DNA of 19,244 bases. Source: Candidatus Caccocola faecipullorum. Its GTDB lineage: Bacteria; Synergistota; Synergistia; Synergistales; Synergistaceae. The stretch spans positions 1-19,244 of the forward strand of contig DVKA01000077.1 in the NCBI GenBank assembly GCA_018716365.1, given 5' to 3'. The position numbers were made by a program, and so were the translations under genes. The notes beneath the pieces are model-generated. The model was given only the letters and a program-made list of their open reading frames with translations. It was not told where the DNA came from and ran no database searches. Shown here one piece after another: positions 6,862 to 14,465 of this stretch. The first letter of the stretch is position 1; each line of letters starts with the position of its first letter.

Positions 6862-7935
6862 TTACAGATACGCGCCGTCGGGGTAATTCCGCGCGCGCTC
6901 CTCGCCGCGCATGACGCGCAGAGCGCCCAGCGCGAGCGCCTCAAGTTCGTTCTCTCCCGGCAGCACGACGACGCGGCCGAGGAATTTTATCTTTTTCGTA
7001 ATGCGCGCGGCGAGCTCCTGCGAGTGCGCCATGCCGCCGGTCAGTATCACTGCGTCGATGTTCCCGTCGAGCGCCGCCGCGAGCTCGCCGATCCCCTTCG
7101 CAACCTGATAGACGAAGGCGTCGAGGACGAGCGCCGCGCGTCCGTCGCGCGAGGCGAGCGCGAATATCTCGCGCAGGTCGCGCGTGCCGAGGTAGGCGAC
7201 GAAGCCCCAGCCCGAGAGCAGCTTGACGCGCAGCTCGGCTTCCGTCCAGCGCCCGCTGAAGCAGAGCTCTATGAGAGCGTCGGCCGGCAGCCCGCCCGCG
7301 CGCTCGGCGGAGAACGGCCCGTCGGCCTTCGCGCCAATCACGTCGACGATGCGCCCGCCTTCGTGCGCGCCTATCGTAACGCCCGTGCCAAGATGCGCGA
7401 CGACGAAGCGGCACTCCTCGTAGCGTTTGCCGAGCGACGCGGCGGCGCGGCGCGCCATGGCGCGCTGGTTGAGCGCGTGAACGAGGCTGCCGCGCTCTAT
7501 CTCCGGCGCGCCGGAGACGCGTGCGACTGCGGATAGCTCGTCTACCGACACAGGGTCTACGATGTAGGCGGGCGCGTGCGATTCATCCGCGAAGCGGCGC
7601 GCGATGAACGGCCCGAGGTTCGACGCGTGCTCGCCGCGCGGCGCGCGAGCGAGCCACTCCGTCATCGCGTCGTTGACGAGGTACGTCCCCGACGGAACGG
7701 GCGCGAGCAGCCCGCCGCGGCCGACGGCGGCGTCGAACTTGCGCGCGCCGAAGCCCGCTTCGGAAAGGGCCGACGCTATCGCCGCGCAGCGCGCCGGCAG
7801 CTGCGCGAGTATCGTTCCATACTTCGCGCGCTCCTCGTCGGGGAACGGCAGATTTTTCTCGAATATCCCGCTCTCGCCCTCGTAGACCGCGATCTTCGTC
7901 GAAGTCGAGCCCGGGTCGGCGGCGAGTATCAGCAA
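6862..7935 (-). CDS. buk: Butyrate (branched-chain fatty acid) kinase
   Basis: Acetokinase-family enzyme that converts acyl phosphate plus ADP to the free acid plus ATP, the last energy-yielding step of butyrate or isobutyrate/isovalerate-type fermentation. The 357-residue protein has the ASKHA phosphate-1 motif DPGSTSTK (7-14), the central HLGTGVTIGAHEGGRIVD, then DGPFSAERAGGLP and the C-terminal VILTGGMAHS, all in butyrate-kinase order and length. The reading frame is open further upstream, but the protein fold starts here. The best start is TTG at 7935, with GGAGGA 8 bases upstream inside the end of ptb. This overlaps ptb by 7 bases and indicates coupling. It forms a pair with phosphate butyryltransferase. 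The acyl chain specificity cannot be read from sequence. Confidence 0.93.
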   Translation of the reverse strand: MLILAADPGSTSTKIAVYEGESGIFEKNLPFPDEERAKYGTILAQLPARCAAIASALSEAGFGARKFDAAVGRGGLLAPVPSGTYLVNDAMTEWLARAPRGEHASNLGPFIARRFADESHAPAYIVDPVSVDELSAVARVSGAPEIERGSLVHALNQRAMARRAAASLGKRYEECRFVVAHLGTGVTIGAHEGGRIVDVIGAKADGPFSAERAGGLPADALIELCFSGRWTEAELRVKLLSGWGFVAYLGTRDLREIFALASRDGRAALVLDAFVYQVAKGIGELAAALDGNIDAVILTGGMAHSQELAARITKKIKFLGRVVVLPGENELEALALGALRVMRGEERARNYPDGAYL

Positions 7936-8849
7936 CGATGCATTCCTCCCGCGACGAGGCAGGAGAGAGCGATGGCGTTGAACTTCGTCTCGTGGTCGTC
8001 CGTGCGCGAGACGAGGATTATCGGGGCCTTCGCGCCGAGGACGACGCCCGCGGACTTCGCGTGGCAGTAATGTATGAGCGTCTTGCAGTGGACGTTGCCG
8101 CACTCGATGCTCGGCACTATCGTGAGGTCGACCTTGCCCGCTATGACGCTGCGGATGCCCTTGCGCTCCGCCGCCTCCTTCGACGCGACGACGTCTATCG
8201 CCATCGGCCCCTCTATCGTGCAGGTGCAGGGCAGGCCGTCGAACTCGCCCGCGCGCCACGCCTCAACGAGCGCCGCGGCGTCCACCGTCGCGGGCATGTC
8301 GGGGTTGACGCGCTCGTTCGCGGCGAGTATTGCGACGTTGACGTGTTCGTAGCCGAGCGCGTGTATCGCGCGCAGAGAGTTCGCAATGATATATTTTTTC
8401 TCCTTAAGCGTCGGCGCGATGATGAATCCGCTGTCGGCGCAGAACGAAAGATGACGCTCCCCCGGTATCTCCAGCACGGCGAGGTGGCTCAGTATGCGCC
8501 CTGTGCGCAGGCCGTTCTCCTTGTCGAGCACCGCGCGCAGGAAGTCCTCAGTGTTGACTAGCCCCTTCATCAGCGTGTGGCCGGCGCCTTCGCGCACGAT
8601 CGCTACGGCCCTGCGCGCGGCTTCGGCCGGCGTATCAGCGTGGACGAGCTCCGCGCGTCCCGCGACGCCGAACTCCTCCATCGCGGGGTGCAGCACGGCC
8701 TCGTCGCCGACGAGCACAGCATGGCCCAGCCCGTGGTCGAAGGCCAGCTTCATAGCCTCGACGGTCTCCCTGTCCGCGGAGGCCGCCACCACGTTGCTGC
8801 CGCCGAGACAGCCGCAGCAGTTTATCATTTCCTCGAAAGTCTTATACAT
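7929..8849 (-). CDS. ptb: Phosphate butyryltransferase (phosphate acyltransferase)
   Basis: Converts acyl-CoA plus phosphate into acyl phosphate plus CoA, feeding the downstream kinase. The 306-residue protein has the PTA/PTB-family layout and length: VLVGDE early, LMKGLVNTEDFLRAVL (93-108), then LSHLAVLEIPG, ADSGFIIAPTL and a C-terminal GAKAPIILVSRTDDHETKFNAIALS. The N-terminus has an odd cysteine cluster, CCGC (11-14). The start ATG at 8849 has GGGAGG 7 bases upstream. It is the first gene of a two-gene operon with buk and is divergent from the first MATE gene. With IorAB-type oxidoreductases nearby, amino-acid-derived acyl-CoA is a plausible substrate, though this is inference. Confidence 0.93.
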   Translation of the reverse strand: MYKTFEEMINCCGCLGGSNVVAASADRETVEAMKLAFDHGLGHAVLVGDEAVLHPAMEEFGVAGRAELVHADTPAEAARRAVAIVREGAGHTLMKGLVNTEDFLRAVLDKENGLRTGRILSHLAVLEIPGERHLSFCADSGFIIAPTLKEKKYIIANSLRAIHALGYEHVNVAILAANERVNPDMPATVDAAALVEAWRAGEFDGLPCTCTIEGPMAIDVVASKEAAERKGIRSVIAGKVDLTIVPSIECGNVHCKTLIHYCHAKSAGVVLGAKAPIILVSRTDDHETKFNAIALSCLVAGGMHRC

Positions 8850-10389: not shown

Positions 10390-11780
10390 GAAATCTGCCG
10401 AAGGAGGCCGACCTCGGCAGAGACCCCGTCGACCGCCTGCTCTTCACGCTCGCCGCGCCCGCGATAACGTCGCAGATCGTCAACGCGCTCTACAACGTCG
10501 TCGACCGTATGTACATCGGACACATCCCGGGCGAAGGAGCCGCCGCGCTTACCGGGCTCGGCGTCTGCTTCCCGCTCATCATGCTCATATCGGCCTTCGC
10601 CAACCTCATCGGCATGGGTGGCGCGCCGCGCGCGAGCATACTGATGGGCCACGGCGACGAAGAGGGAGCGGAGCGTATACTCGGCAACTGCTTCGCTGCG
10701 CTCGTCGCGCTCTCCGCAGTCCTCACGGCCTTCTCCTTCCTCTTCATGCGCCCGATGCTCATGCTCTTCGGCGCGAGCGGCGCGACCATCGGCTACGCCA
10801 TGGACTACATGGAAATTTACGCCGCGGGCACGATCTTCGTACAGATCACGCTCGGCATGAACGTCTTCATAACCGCGCAAGGCTTCTCTAAGGTCAGCAT
10901 GATGACCGTCGTCATAGGCGCGGCTGTCAACATCATACTCGACCCGATTTTTATCTTCGTCCTCGGCATGGGCGTGCGCGGCGCGGCGTGGGCGACAGTC
11001 ATATCGCAGGCGGTCAGCGCCGTCTGGGCGCTGCGCTTCCTCTGCGGCGGGCGCGCCGTGCTGAAGCTCAGAAGCGCGAATATGCACGTGTCGCGCGCCG
11101 TCATCATGCCATGCGTCGCGCTCGGCTTCGCGCCGTTCGTCATGCAGTCCACCGAGAGCCTGCTCGTGCTCTCATTCAACTCGTCGCTGCTGAAATACGG
11201 CGGCGACGTCGCCGTCGGCGCGATGACGATATTGTCAAGCGTCATGCAGTTCGCAATGCTCCCGGTACAGGGGCTTACGCAGGGGGCGCAGCCGATTGTG
11301 AGCTACAACTACGGCGCTGGCAACCCGGAACGCATGAAGCAGGCGTTCCTCCTGCTCCTCAGGTCGTGCCTCGTATGCACCGCCGTGATCTGGGCCCTCT
11401 CGCTGCTCTGCCCCGGGCTGTTCGTCCATATTTTTACCGACGACCCAGAGCTCGCCGCCACGGCGCGCTGGGCTCTGCGCATATACATGGCCGGAATCGG
11501 CGTATTCGGCGCGCAGGTCGCCTGCCAGCAGACCTTCATCGCGCTCGGGAATTCAAGAACTTCGTCGTTCCTAGCAACGCTGCGCAAGATAATCCTGCTT
11601 ATCCCGCTCATATATATTCTGCCGCACTTCTTCGACGACAAGGTCTTCGCGGTCTTCTTCGCCGAACCTGTCGCCGACGTTATAGCGGTCGCGACGACCG
11701 TCACGCTCTTCAGCCATGAGTTCCGCCGCCTGCTGCGCTCGATGCGCGAGCCGCGCGCCGGAAGAGATGCCCGCGCTTGA
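10386..11780 (+). CDS. MATE-family efflux transporter 2 (MepA-like)
   Basis: A 464-residue MATE transporter, different in sequence from its upstream neighbour and closer to the MepA-like group. It has LYNVVDRMYIGHIPGEG (35-51), ALTGLGVCFPLIMLISAFANLIGMGGAPRASILMG (split here across helix 2), and the second-half motif PVQGLTQGAQPIVSYNYGAGN, typical of MepA-like proteins. The GTG start at 10386 overlaps the previous stop by 4 bases (GTGA), so the two are translationally coupled. The frame is open further upstream, but that region is the other gene in a different frame. Its own stop TGA (11778-11780) lies inside the -35 of the next promoter. Tandem MATE genes could act on different substrates. 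Confidence 0.92.
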   Translation: MRNLPKEADLGRDPVDRLLFTLAAPAITSQIVNALYNVVDRMYIGHIPGEGAAALTGLGVCFPLIMLISAFANLIGMGGAPRASILMGHGDEEGAERILGNCFAALVALSAVLTAFSFLFMRPMLMLFGASGATIGYAMDYMEIYAAGTIFVQITLGMNVFITAQGFSKVSMMTVVIGAAVNIILDPIFIFVLGMGVRGAAWATVISQAVSAVWALRFLCGGRAVLKLRSANMHVSRAVIMPCVALGFAPFVMQSTESLLVLSFNSSLLKYGGDVAVGAMTILSSVMQFAMLPVQGLTQGAQPIVSYNYGAGNPERMKQAFLLLLRSCLVCTAVIWALSLLCPGLFVHIFTDDPELAATARWALRIYMAGIGVFGAQVACQQTFIALGNSRTSSFLATLRKIILLIPLIYILPHFFDDKVFAVFFAEPVADVIAVATTVTLFSHEFRRLLRSMREPRAGRDARA

Positions 11781-11805
11781 CACTTCGCGCGCAAGCGGTT
11801 ATAAA
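11777..11805 (+). promoter_or_regulatory. Near-consensus sigma-70 promoter of the iorAB leader
   Basis: Perfect -35 TTGACA (11777-11782), a 17-base spacer and TATAAA (11800-11805). The -35 overlaps the stop codon of the second MATE gene. The predicted transcript start near 11812 leaves a leader of about 160 bases before iorA, which holds the hairpin, NAG array and attenuator listed next. This is the best promoter in the window. Confidence 0.85.
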
Positions 11806-11816
11806 TTACATCGGAA

Positions 11817-11836
11817 GAGGGAGGGGAGCCTCCCTC
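11817..11836 (+). promoter_or_regulatory. 5' stem-loop of the iorA leader
   Basis: Perfect 8-bp stem (GAGGGAGG at 11817-11824, CCTCCCTC at 11829-11836) closed by a GGAG loop. It sits only a few bases after the predicted transcript start and just before the NAG triplets. The Bacillus subtilis trp leader has a 5' stem-loop in the same place that contacts TRAP. The GGA-containing loop is also compatible with a CsrA site. Confidence 0.7.
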
Positions 11837-11839
11837 GCA

Positions 11840-11882
11840 CAGGAGACAAGACGAGATTAGATAAGCTGCAAGATCAGACGAG
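11840..11882 (+). promoter_or_regulatory. NAG-triplet array in the iorA leader (TRAP-like RNA site)
   Basis: AG recurs with 5-base period at 11844-45, 11849-50, 11854-55, 11859-60 and 11864-65. After one 4-base spacer it resumes at 11871-72, 11876-77 and 11881-82. Each is a NAG triplet (GAG, AAG, TAG or CAG) separated by two bases, mostly AC or AT; a further CAG lies at 11840-11842. TRAP (MtrB) binds (G/U)AG repeats with 2-3-base spacers. Several triplets here are AAG or CAG, which are weaker TRAP ligands. The array and spacing are seen directly; the protein is inferred. Confidence 0.6.
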
Positions 11883-11937
11883 TGTGTTGACTGCTTGAAC
11901 GTTCAAGACTCTGTCGTATGCGGCGGGGTCTTTTTTT
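11877..11937 (+). terminator. Attenuator (antiterminator/terminator pair) before iorA
   Basis: Terminator: 11905-11916 pairs with 11921-11932 as a continuous stem with three G-U pairs and a TATG loop; seven T follow at 11931-11937. Competing antiterminator: GACGAGT (11877-11883) pairs with ACTC(T)GTC (11908-11915, one bulged T) and encloses a self-complementary CTTGAACGTTCAAG hairpin (11894-11907). The antiterminator's 5' arm contains the last GAG triplet and part of the preceding CAG, so a protein on the array would favour termination. Because the promoter lies after the MATE genes, this is a leader terminator rather than only an end-of-operon one. Confidence 0.75.
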
Positions 11938-11974
11938 ATGACTTTATACATCTTCAACGTTTGGGGGAATTTTC

Positions 11975-13777
11975 ATGGTCCTCAGGGTCTGTATGGGAAA
12001 CGAGGCGATAGCGCTCGGCGCGCTCGCGGCGGGGCTGAAGCTCGCCGCCGGTTATCCCGGCACTCCTTCGACTGAAATTATAGAAACGCTCGTGCGCGAG
12101 CGCCGCGACGGCGTGGACGTGCAGTGGTCCGTCAATGAGAAGGCCGCGCTCGAAGTCGCGGCGGGCGGCGCTTACGCAGGCGCGCGCACGATGTGCACGA
12201 TGAAGCAGGTCGGCCTCAACGTCGCTTCCGACCCGCTGATGAGCCTCGCATATATAGGAGTCAAAGGCGGCATGGTCGTCGCCGTCGCGGACGACCCGGG
12301 GCCGTGGTCGTCGCAGACGGAGCAGGACACGCGCAACTTTGCGAAGCACGCGAACCTTCCGGTCTTCGACCCGTCGTCGCCAGAAGAGGCCTACGAAATG
12401 ATACAGACGGCCTTCGACTTCTCCGAAAAATTTGAACTTCCCGTATTTCTGCGCCCGACGACGCGCGTCTGCCACGCGAGCGCCGAGGTCGAGCTGCGCG
12501 AGCCGTCGCCGGTAAAAGAAGCTGGCGGCTTCGAACGCCGCCCAGAGTGGTGCATCTTCCCCGCGCTCTCATACCGCAAGCACGGCGAGCTTGAGGTCAA
12601 ACAGCACGAAATGGCGTGCGCATTCGACGAAATGCCCTACAACAGGATAGAAAACTACGGAGCCGGAAGTCGCCGCGCCGTCGCCGCCTCAGGCATATCG
12701 TACCTCTACGCGAAGGAAGCTCTTAACGAGCTCGGCGCGGACGCGACGCTCTACAAAATAGGCACCCCCTACCCGATGCCCGAGAAGCTCACGAAGGATT
12801 TCCTCGCGGGCGCGGATTCCGTGCTCGTGCTTGAAGAGCTGGACCCCGTCGTCGAAGAGCAGCTTCTCATCGAAGCGGCGGGCCGCGTGCCTGTGCTCGG
12901 CAAACGCAGCGGCGACATGCCGTGGAACGGGGAATACTCGTTCGAGCTGATAAAGGCGGCGCTTGCAAAATATCTCGGCCTCTCCGCCGAAGCTGAAGCC
13001 ACGCCCGAACTTCCGCAGCTTCCCGTGCGCCCGCCGGTCCTCTGCGCGGGCTGCCCGCACCGCGCTTCGTTCTACGAGGCGAAGATTGCGACGAAGGACT
13101 GCAAAAAAGCAATTTACTGCGGCGACATCGGCTGCTACACGCTCGGCAACGCCGCGCCGCTCAACATGGTGGACACCTGCCTCTGCATGGGCGCAGGCAT
13201 AACGCTCGCTCAGGGTCTCGCGCTGGCCGAGCCGGGAACGAAATGCCTCGCCTTCATCGGCGACTCGACATTCTTCCACACGGGAATCCCCGGCGTAATC
13301 AACGCCGTCTATCAGGGGACGGACATAACGATAATAGTGCTCGACAACCGCACGACCGCGATGACGGGCCACCAGCCGCACCCCGGCACTGGAAAGCGCG
13401 CGCTCGGCGGCGACAGCATCGCGCTCGACATAGAGACCATACTGCGCGCCTGCGGCGTGGAGCATGTCGCGCGCGTCAATCCCTTTGATTTTGAAAAATC
13501 CCTCGCCGCGATGAAGGAGGCAGTCGCCTACGCAGGCCCCTCCGCCGTCATCGCCGAAGCGCCATGCATCGCGAACGTCAGAAAAAAAGCTCCGGCGCAC
13601 TTCGTCAACGATAAATGTATAAAATGCGGCAGATGCGTGCGCGAGATAGGCTGCCCCGCGATAACGCCGGACGCCGAAGGCCGCGCGGTCATCAGCGCGT
13701 CGCTCTGCACTGGATGCGGCCTCTGCGCAAACGTCTGCCCAGTAAACGCGATAAAGGAGGGCGAAGCCCATGCTTAG
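11975..13777 (+). CDS. iorA: Indolepyruvate:ferredoxin oxidoreductase, alpha subunit
   Basis: Thiamine-diphosphate and iron-sulfur subunit that oxidatively decarboxylates aryl-pyruvates (from Trp, Phe, Tyr) to aryl-acetyl-CoA with ferredoxin; the reaction can run in reverse. The 600-residue protein is full length. MGNEAIALGALAAG (7-20) then GYPGTPSTEI opens the pyrimidine-binding domain. LCAGCPHR (356-363) and GDIGCYTLG (383-391) start the TPP domain, which has GDSTFFHTG (429-437) and VLDNRTTAMTGHQPHPG (455-471). The C-terminus carries two [4Fe-4S] motifs: C548, C551, C554, C560 and C578, C581, C584, C588. ATG 11975 has GGGGGA about 8 bases upstream. It overlaps iorB by 8 bases. Expression is probably set by the leader attenuator. 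The family call is secure; the physiological direction is not. Confidence 0.95.
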   Translation: MVLRVCMGNEAIALGALAAGLKLAAGYPGTPSTEIIETLVRERRDGVDVQWSVNEKAALEVAAGGAYAGARTMCTMKQVGLNVASDPLMSLAYIGVKGGMVVAVADDPGPWSSQTEQDTRNFAKHANLPVFDPSSPEEAYEMIQTAFDFSEKFELPVFLRPTTRVCHASAEVELREPSPVKEAGGFERRPEWCIFPALSYRKHGELEVKQHEMACAFDEMPYNRIENYGAGSRRAVAASGISYLYAKEALNELGADATLYKIGTPYPMPEKLTKDFLAGADSVLVLEELDPVVEEQLLIEAAGRVPVLGKRSGDMPWNGEYSFELIKAALAKYLGLSAEAEATPELPQLPVRPPVLCAGCPHRASFYEAKIATKDCKKAIYCGDIGCYTLGNAAPLNMVDTCLCMGAGITLAQGLALAEPGTKCLAFIGDSTFFHTGIPGVINAVYQGTDITIIVLDNRTTAMTGHQPHPGTGKRALGGDSIALDIETILRACGVEHVARVNPFDFEKSLAAMKEAVAYAGPSAVIAEAPCIANVRKKAPAHFVNDKCIKCGRCVREIGCPAITPDAEGRAVISASLCTGCGLCANVCPVNAIKEGEAHA

Positions 13778-14416: not shown

Positions 14417-14465
14417 GAGCGCAGACAAGCATAGATTAGACAAGCAAAGACAAGGAGAAGAAAAG
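14417..14465 (+). promoter_or_regulatory. NAG-triplet array covering the paaK ribosome binding site
   Basis: Eight NAG triplets run at an exact 5-base period (G at 14419, 14424, 14429, 14434, 14439, 14444, 14449 and 14454). Three more follow at 14455-57, 14458-60 and 14463-65, eleven in all, ending right at the ATG. The Shine-Dalgarno AAGGAG (14452-14457) is part of the array. A bound ring protein would therefore block initiation, as TRAP does at Bacillus trpG. Part of it (14423-14445) closely matches 11844-11866 of the iorA leader. A small GC hairpin (14403-14407/14418-14422) overlaps its start. A CsrA site is an alternative reading of ACAAGGA. Confidence 0.6.

Follow-up and report, generated by a model that had tools for sequence, protein, structure and literature searches.

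Which signal controls the operon iorA-iorB-paaK of Candidatus Caccocola faecipullorum (Synergistota; Synergistaceae), and in which direction does its indolepyruvate:ferredoxin oxidoreductase (IOR) run? IOR is known chiefly for its oxidative role in amino acid fermentation, and TRAP, the product of mtrB, is a ring-shaped tryptophan sensor that turns off tryptophan synthesis in Bacillus. An earlier note on the 19,244-nt contig DVKA01000077.1 (C271; this whole stretch is hereafter called the window) proposed from the letters alone that the region in front of iorA is an attenuation leader at which TRAP turns off iorAB, and it suggested looking for mtrB and for conserved AG spacing and covarying stems in related leaders. 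The proposal is supported by the mtrB gene of this genome, by the AG periodicity of the related leaders, and by the covariation of their 5' hairpin and terminator. We regard it as highly probable, judging from sequence, that iorA-iorB-paaK is repressed by tryptophan-bound TRAP at two places (i.e., the leader and the start of paaK) as end-product control of a biosynthetic salvage route. The assembly (GCA_018716365.1; 2.15 Mb in 299 contigs) is 87.7% complete, and 185 Synergistota genomes served as the comparison set for the searches for TRAP, the leader, TrpA, and anti-TRAP.

A TRAP-type leader upstream of iorA

The region upstream of iorA contains a promoter, a 5' hairpin, eight NAG triplets, and a terminator (Table 1), all at the coordinates that the earlier note had given. 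The triplets, exactly eight, read GAG, AAG, GAG, TAG, AAG, AAG, CAG, and GAG; six of the seven spacers are 2 nt long, and the remaining one is the 4-base exception already pointed out. The pairing that had been described between the end of the array and the left arm of the terminator is also present, with one bulged base. The array scores 5.7. When the whole window was shuffled 300 times (one strand), the best array averaged 3.1 and reached 5.0 at most, and none of 5,000 shuffles of the leader alone attained the observed score. A TTGAC/TATAA-type promoter pattern occurs in 21 of 24 related loci, the window included, and is missing in L124, L128, and L131. The window promoter was not listed by a general promoter scan because the rule of that scan requires T at position 6.

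Table 1. Features of the predicted leader and of the operon in the window
Feature	Coordinates	Strand	Details
Sigma-70-type promoter	11777..11805	+	TTGACA 11777-11782, 17-nt spacer, TATAAA 11800-11805
Whole modelled leader RNA (covariance model R1)	11809..11937	+	R1 E 2.2e-18; itself a training sequence
5' stem-loop	11817..11836	+	Perfect 8 bp, loop GGAG, -16.9 kcal/mol
TRAP-type array	11843..11882	+	8 NAG triplets, spacers 2,2,2,2,4,2,2
Putative antiterminator, left arm	11877..11883	+	Within last two triplets
Putative antiterminator, right arm	11908..11915	+	Part of terminator left arm
Intrinsic terminator	11905..11937	+	Hairpin 11905-11932, 12 pairs, then five more T
iorA, IOR alpha subunit, 600 aa	11975..13777	+	TIGR03336 745.6 bits (cut-off 650.9)
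iorB, IOR beta subunit, 197 aa	13770..14363	+	PF01558 120.9 bits (cut-off 27.4); NCBIfam IOR beta models below cut-offs
Second TRAP-type array	14417..14465	+	8 regular NAG 14417-14454 running into Shine-Dalgarno AAGGAG 14452-14457, then 2 more to ATG
paaK-like arylacetate-CoA ligase, 409 aa	14466..15695	+	PF00501 and PF14535 above cut-off; TIGR02155 394.2 bits, below 646.3

An iorA search across Synergistota yielded three types among the matches listed: one 65 to 100% identical to the window iorA in 25 genomes (partial in G130; e.g., 78% in Synergistes sp. L002), a 53 to 58% identical relative in 10 genomes, and a 40 to 46% identical paralogue in many genomes. The leader is kept before iorA of the first type in all 25 genomes among these matches. 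Twenty-four leaders were aligned (A1), and the covariance model R1, built from these same 24, matched a single site in each of 25 of the 185 genomes at E <= 1.8e-11; the next matches appeared only at 1e-3. By coordinates, all 25 strong matches lie 20 to 135 nt upstream of iorA of this type, 24 of them being training sequences and G130 alone being independent. The weak matches (E 0.001 to 0.05), some of which lie in TRAP-bearing genomes (G134, G166, G009, and G023), were taken as noise. Of the five that were inspected (L168 to L172), only that of G123 (L170:1471-1640, E 0.0028), which precedes trpB2, is plausible.

The 5' hairpin and the terminator were recovered from the 24-leader alignment by RNAalifold with no structure supplied. 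Changes on both sides, compensatory in kind, affect 15 of their 20 pairs, including 7 of the 8 pairs of the 5' hairpin, whose loop ends in AG (NNAG) in 23 of the 24 leaders. The AG spacing is likewise conserved. Pooled over the 24 leaders, an AG-AG distance of 5 occurs 135 times, compared with 38.4 +- 5.6 in shuffles (z 17.3), a distance of 10 has a z of 9.1, and distances of 4, 6, and 8 are depleted. When each genus is represented by a single leader (n = 12), distance 5 occurs 67 times versus 16.7 +- 3.4 in shuffles (z 14.8), and distance 10 has a z of 7.4. For 19 of the 24 arrays taken individually, no more than 4 of 500 shuffles attained the score.

TRAP in this genome and in its relatives

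The genome encodes a single TRAP, the gene that the earlier note had suggested looking for, with a PF02081 (TrpBP) score of 112.2 bits against a cut-off of 21.3. NCBIfam equivalog model NF009724 scored 113.7 bits (E 2.3e-33), below its cut-off of 117, and residues 10 to 78 of the 82-aa protein match structurally solved TRAPs (1wap, E 3.6e-23). The mtrB gene is flanked by what we take, from their translations, to be dnaE-like and pyk-like genes. PF02081 identified TRAP in 57 of the 185 Synergistota genomes and, among 14 control genomes, in B. subtilis alone. Lys37, Lys56, and Arg58 presumably contact RNA in the Bacillus protein; K41, K60, and R62 of the present TRAP occupy these positions, and all three are kept in 30 of 30 loci. 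In a wider set of TRAPs, the first Lys was found in 48 of 50 and the other Lys and the Arg in 50 of 50.

Leader and TRAP tend to occur together. Of the 52 genomes of the family, 22 have both, 3 have the leader only, 6 have TRAP only, and 21 have neither (Fisher p 1.7e-6, only indicative because the genomes are related). The 10 genomes with the 53 to 58% identical iorA, among the matches listed, have neither TRAP nor an R1 match. In one (L139) of the six of these TRAP-less relatives whose upstream regions were read, an irregular chain of five triplets, attained by 3 of 500 shuffles, precedes iorA.

No match to anti-TRAP (rtpA) exceeded the cut-off of 32 in this 87.7% complete assembly, the best (20.7 bits) lying inside an 857-aa frame, and an anti-TRAP circuit was rejected. 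An anti-TRAP-like protein over the Pfam cut-off was found in 1 of the 185 Synergistota genomes (G006, L223; 36.8 bits).

A second array at the start of paaK

A follow-up scan revealed an array at the start of paaK that is absent from the earlier note. Its eight regular triplets (GAG, CAG, AAG, TAG, TAG, AAG, AAG, and AAG, with 2-nt spacers) end in the Shine-Dalgarno sequence AAGGAG. With ten triplets in all and a score of 6.8, it is the best array of the window and is more regular than the leader array. It is also the only exact 6x AG(N3) site in the 2.15-Mb assembly (three overlapping registers); with one mismatch, the pattern occurs in nine places, including the iorA leader. Pooled over the 24 loci, the signal at the paaK start has a z of 9.7, versus 0.2 in six TRAP-less relatives. 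The order iorA-iorB-paaK is the same in all 24 loci examined (G130 excluded) and in six TRAP-less relatives.

Proposed regulation and direction of the pathway

TRAP control of iorAB-paaK appears very likely from these features, and it most likely operates at two points, with TRAP terminating the transcription of iorAB and blocking the translation of paaK. We infer that tryptophan-bound TRAP would wrap the NAG array of the leader, aided by the 5' stem-loop, and would prevent the last triplets from pairing with the left arm of the terminator, which would then form before iorA. When tryptophan is scarce, TRAP would release the leader, and RNA polymerase would read through. On the read-through mRNA, TRAP bound to the second array would cover the ribosome-binding site of paaK and block its translation. 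PaaK itself would activate arylacetates, indoleacetate among them, as CoA esters; IOR would reductively carboxylate these to arylpyruvates, and a transaminase would then make the amino acids.

Since the operon would be repressed under tryptophan, its role is probably biosynthetic, supplying tryptophan, and such repression would amount to end-product control of the salvage route. The likely direction is thus from arylacetate through aryl-CoA and arylpyruvate to the amino acid, and the operon seems equipped to remake tryptophan out of scavenged indoleacetate. Independent support for this direction comes from the distribution of TrpA, from the use of IOR in another organism, and from the leaders of related ior and trp operons described below. 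In the 25 leader genomes, TrpA was found over nearly the full model in 6 and as fragments in 1 (G128), and none was found over the cut-off in 18, of which 12 are at least 90% complete. IOR serves aromatic amino acid synthesis from aryl acids in Methanococcus maripaludis, according to a passage of PMC4162585 that cites Porat et al.

Elsewhere in the window (6862-8849, minus strand), adjacent frames resemble, in our judgment of their translations, phosphate butyryltransferase and butyrate kinase.

Candidate tryptophan sensors on related ior and trp operons

Operons of the same kind in other phyla carry another type of leader. Among the 79 best of the iorA matches listed outside Synergistota, most of them from Clostridia, 10 loci have a T-box core upstream (L006, L007, L008, L009, L013, L021, L039, L050, L053, and L061, all Bacillota). 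Nine of these were tested with RF00230, and all nine matched at E <= 3.8e-13, two of them above the gathering score. Read by eye, all ten have TGG as the specifier triplet. In nine of them paaK follows iorB, and the contig of the tenth ends before that point. Because T-boxes activate genes upon a shortage of charged tRNA, their presence on Bacillota iorAB-paaK supports the biosynthetic direction. Candidate NAG arrays before iorA in other phyla were rejected; the longest chain (L035, 8 triplets) reads by eye as lysine/glutamate-rich coding sequence.

In the present genome, TRAP control of the trp operon was likewise rejected, given that this operon has no NAG array and in its place has a T-box before trpE (L231:9317-9555, contig C11; 71.2 bits, E 1.8e-13, below the gathering score of 93), with the specifier TGG by eye. 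Two tryptophan sources in this genome thus appear to be served by two different tryptophan sensors. A T-box core with TGG is found likewise at the trp operon of G124, G133, and G134; the trp contigs of G162 and G168 are too short to show any leader. G123 has TRAP and no iorA of this type, and its weak R1 match precedes a TrpB2 gene (TIGR01415, 579.8 bits). In other Synergistota families, GAG-rich arrays lie at the starts of trpE (G024 and G002) and trpD (G024, G021, and G173), the genes being identified by Pfam except for trpD of G021, which was assigned from position and likeness.

Nine of 10 TRAP-bearing genomes examined from other lineages have, in their trp regions and upstream of trp genes, short open reading frames (ORFs) with three consecutive Trp codons (e.g., NWWWRA; L237 to L244 and L246). 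Four of these loci (L239, L242, L244, and L246) combine such an ORF with GAG arrays at trpE or trpD, a pairing of enteric-type with Bacillus-type attenuation. A separate observation concerns TRAP-less relatives: in 3 of 9 (L138, L141, and L142), a short WW-bearing ORF (GLWW...PP) and then a strong terminator lie upstream of iorA; shuffles gave a mean of 0.36 and a maximum of 3, and G148, whose upstream stretch is too short, was excluded. The same scan matched 6 of the 24 leader genomes, in which the ORF looks by eye like the end of an upstream MATE gene. The ORF and terminator represent a possible third tryptophan-sensing mechanism on iorAB-paaK.

Evidence against TRAP control and alternative explanations

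Several observations weigh against control by TRAP as proposed, the first of them a weak point that the earlier note itself had named: only four of the eight leader triplets are (G/U)AG, the other half being AAG or CAG. Five leader arrays (L115, L116, L125, L132, and L133) were attained by 16 to 48 of 500 shuffles. Relatives keep the paaK array unevenly: in only 9 of the 24 loci did no more than 5 of 500 shuffles attain it, and in L116, L117, L119 to L122, L125, and L126, 62 to 444 of 500 did. With up to two mismatches, the 6x pattern (64 + 47 occurrences in this genome) does not exceed its reversed control (74 + 60) in frequency, so that only the exact match is informative. Three genomes (G131, G165, and G168; 89, 66, and 89% complete) have the leader and show no TRAP, and in two leader-genome TRAPs (G137 and G138; L264 and L265) Asn replaces the conserved RNA-binding Lys.

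The antiterminator is another weak point. Of the alternative stems put forward in the earlier note, the complementarity holds in the 10 closest leaders, in which 69 of 70 antiterminator cells (98.6%) are paired, compared with 31 to 60% on sliding the register, and an A-U/G-C exchange is seen at two pairs; the right-arm bases pair also within the terminator. A single register is not common to all 24 leaders (70.8% of cells), and the shuffle test was clearly passed alone by only two of them (L128 and L131; combined p 0.005). The terminator is predicted to be more stable than the antiterminator in 10 of 10 leaders examined, and in 9 of 10 the partial transcript is predicted to contain none of the seven antiterminator pairs. 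Since the predicted energies favor the terminator in all 10, the antiterminator, if it acts, must act kinetically. It may also matter less than the model says, because B. subtilis TRAP can provoke termination without the attenuator hairpin, as a passage of PMC3913778 describes.

The alternative that survives best, unlikely as we judge it, is that TRAP terminates a catabolic operon for aromatic amino acid degradation, sparing tryptophan or tuning flux. The best-known role of IOR, as noted above, is oxidative. In addition, the second, 40 to 46% identical IOR of many genomes has no strong R1 match, and in G134 and G123 no same-strand gene of paaK size follows it (by frame lengths only). Against this reading, a catabolic operon repressed by the very substrate it degrades would be an unusual case, and the neighboring ligase, being of the AMP-forming type, would consume ATP. 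The related Bacillota operons carry Trp-type T-boxes, and the operon is kept in the 18 of 25 leader genomes without TrpA over the cut-off and in the one with fragments only.

It is less probable still that the TRAP of this clade has changed in ligand or logic and senses something other than free tryptophan (e.g., a different aromatic amino acid or an arylpyruvate). The tryptophan pocket presumably comprises Thr25, Thr30, Gln47, and Thr49. Of the 22 leader genomes with TRAP, 21 (the present one and 20 others; all but G127) were read, and all have Asn at the position of Bacillus Thr30; among the other 35 TRAPs, 30 were read, and 29 have Thr there. The Asn also counts against the proposed control. 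The pooled first bases of the triplets in the 24 leaders show no G/U preference, which tells against the proposed control as well, and no clear pattern emerged when they were split according to residue 43 of TRAP. Opposed to a change of ligand are the three other pocket positions, unchanged in 20 of 20 leader-genome TRAPs and in the TRAP of this genome, and the TRAP of G123, which also has Asn and whose weak leader match stands before a gene for a tryptophan-forming enzyme, TrpB2.

We consider it very unlikely that what is conserved here is an ordinary 5' untranslated region with a terminator, in which the AG periodicity reflects purine-rich drift and a CsrA-like protein or none is involved. 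The leaders are indeed purine-rich and AG-rich, and the per-sequence tests of the antiterminator are weak. Drift is difficult to reconcile with the exact 5- and 10-nt spacing (z up to 17), the TRAP gene, and an array of the same period at paaK. CsrA control was rejected, as the 87.7% complete assembly has no PF02599 match and the hairpin loop is GGAG in only 7 of the 24 leaders, in contrast to its AG ending in 23. A different tryptophan sensor (i.e., a T-box or ribosome-mediated leader-peptide attenuation) has next to no probability here: both occur on trp genes in this phylum and WW-bearing ORFs precede iorA in some TRAP-less relatives, but no Rfam family, RF00230 included, matched the window at E <= 1, and 11809-11904 contains no TGG and the leader no ORF with Trp codons, so that both candidates were rejected.

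Repression by tryptophan-bound TRAP remains the reading that we prefer. A broader scenario, which we hold to be about evenly balanced, is that TRAP was re-targeted in one Synergistota lineage, apparently leaving the trp operon (T-box bearing or without TrpA) for iorAB-paaK, where it would act at two points. TRAP would have changed together with its targets (Asn at Thr30 and a relaxed first base of the triplets), possibly with a changed ligand response. Up to three unrelated tryptophan sensors (TRAP, the T-boxes of Bacillota, and perhaps leader peptides in TRAP-less relatives) would then have converged on one operon.

Implications and comparison with known systems

The earlier note knew of no described TRAP control of iorAB, in agreement with the open-licence PubMed Central (PMC) literature, in which no paper links TRAP (under its full name) with indolepyruvate. 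Neither mtrB, TRAP, and Synergistes nor T-box, indolepyruvate, and tryptophan are joined in any open-licence PMC paper, and the main texts of PMC2494555 and PMC3766115 do not mention indolepyruvate, ior, or iorA. If the proposed control is correct, the repertoire of TRAP gains a phylum and a target of a new kind, as far as that literature shows, and TRAP is kept in bacteria where no TrpA was found. Regulation would also tell which way an IOR runs, a matter that annotation alone leaves unsettled. In anaerobes that trade indoleacetate and phenylacetate with a host or with other microbes, tryptophan-responsive control could then distinguish iorAB operons that serve biosynthesis from those that serve fermentation.

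The leader shares with the B. subtilis trp leader the order of its parts (5' stem-loop, triplet array, putative antiterminator, and terminator) and a TRAP gene in the same genome. A passage of PMC3913778 gives 11 (G/U)AG triplets for the B. subtilis leader, whereas the present one has eight NAG triplets, half of them AAG or CAG; its target is iorAB-paaK rather than trp, and its putative antiterminator is short and weak. The paaK array lies in the translation initiation region, as do the arrays through which TRAP blocks ribosome binding at B. subtilis trpG, trpP, and ycbK, according to a passage of PMC11255114. Unlike these genes, paaK stands third in an operon headed by a predicted attenuator, and its eight regular and two further triplets are mostly AAG. 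The Bacillota iorAB-paaK operons with Trp-type T-boxes are the same operon with the same apparent signal, a shortage of tryptophan switching it on; their leaders, however, sense uncharged tRNA directly by RNA, with neither a protein nor a triplet array. The aryl-acid route of M. maripaludis, as cited in PMC4162585, resembles the present one in using IOR for synthesis, which is the probable direction here, and differs in that the organism is an archaeon, whereas in the Synergistota operon a paaK-like ligase is included and TRAP is the putative regulator. Relative to the known TRAP systems, the one proposed here is the same machine in a new phylum, with a new target, double control, and relaxed triplets.

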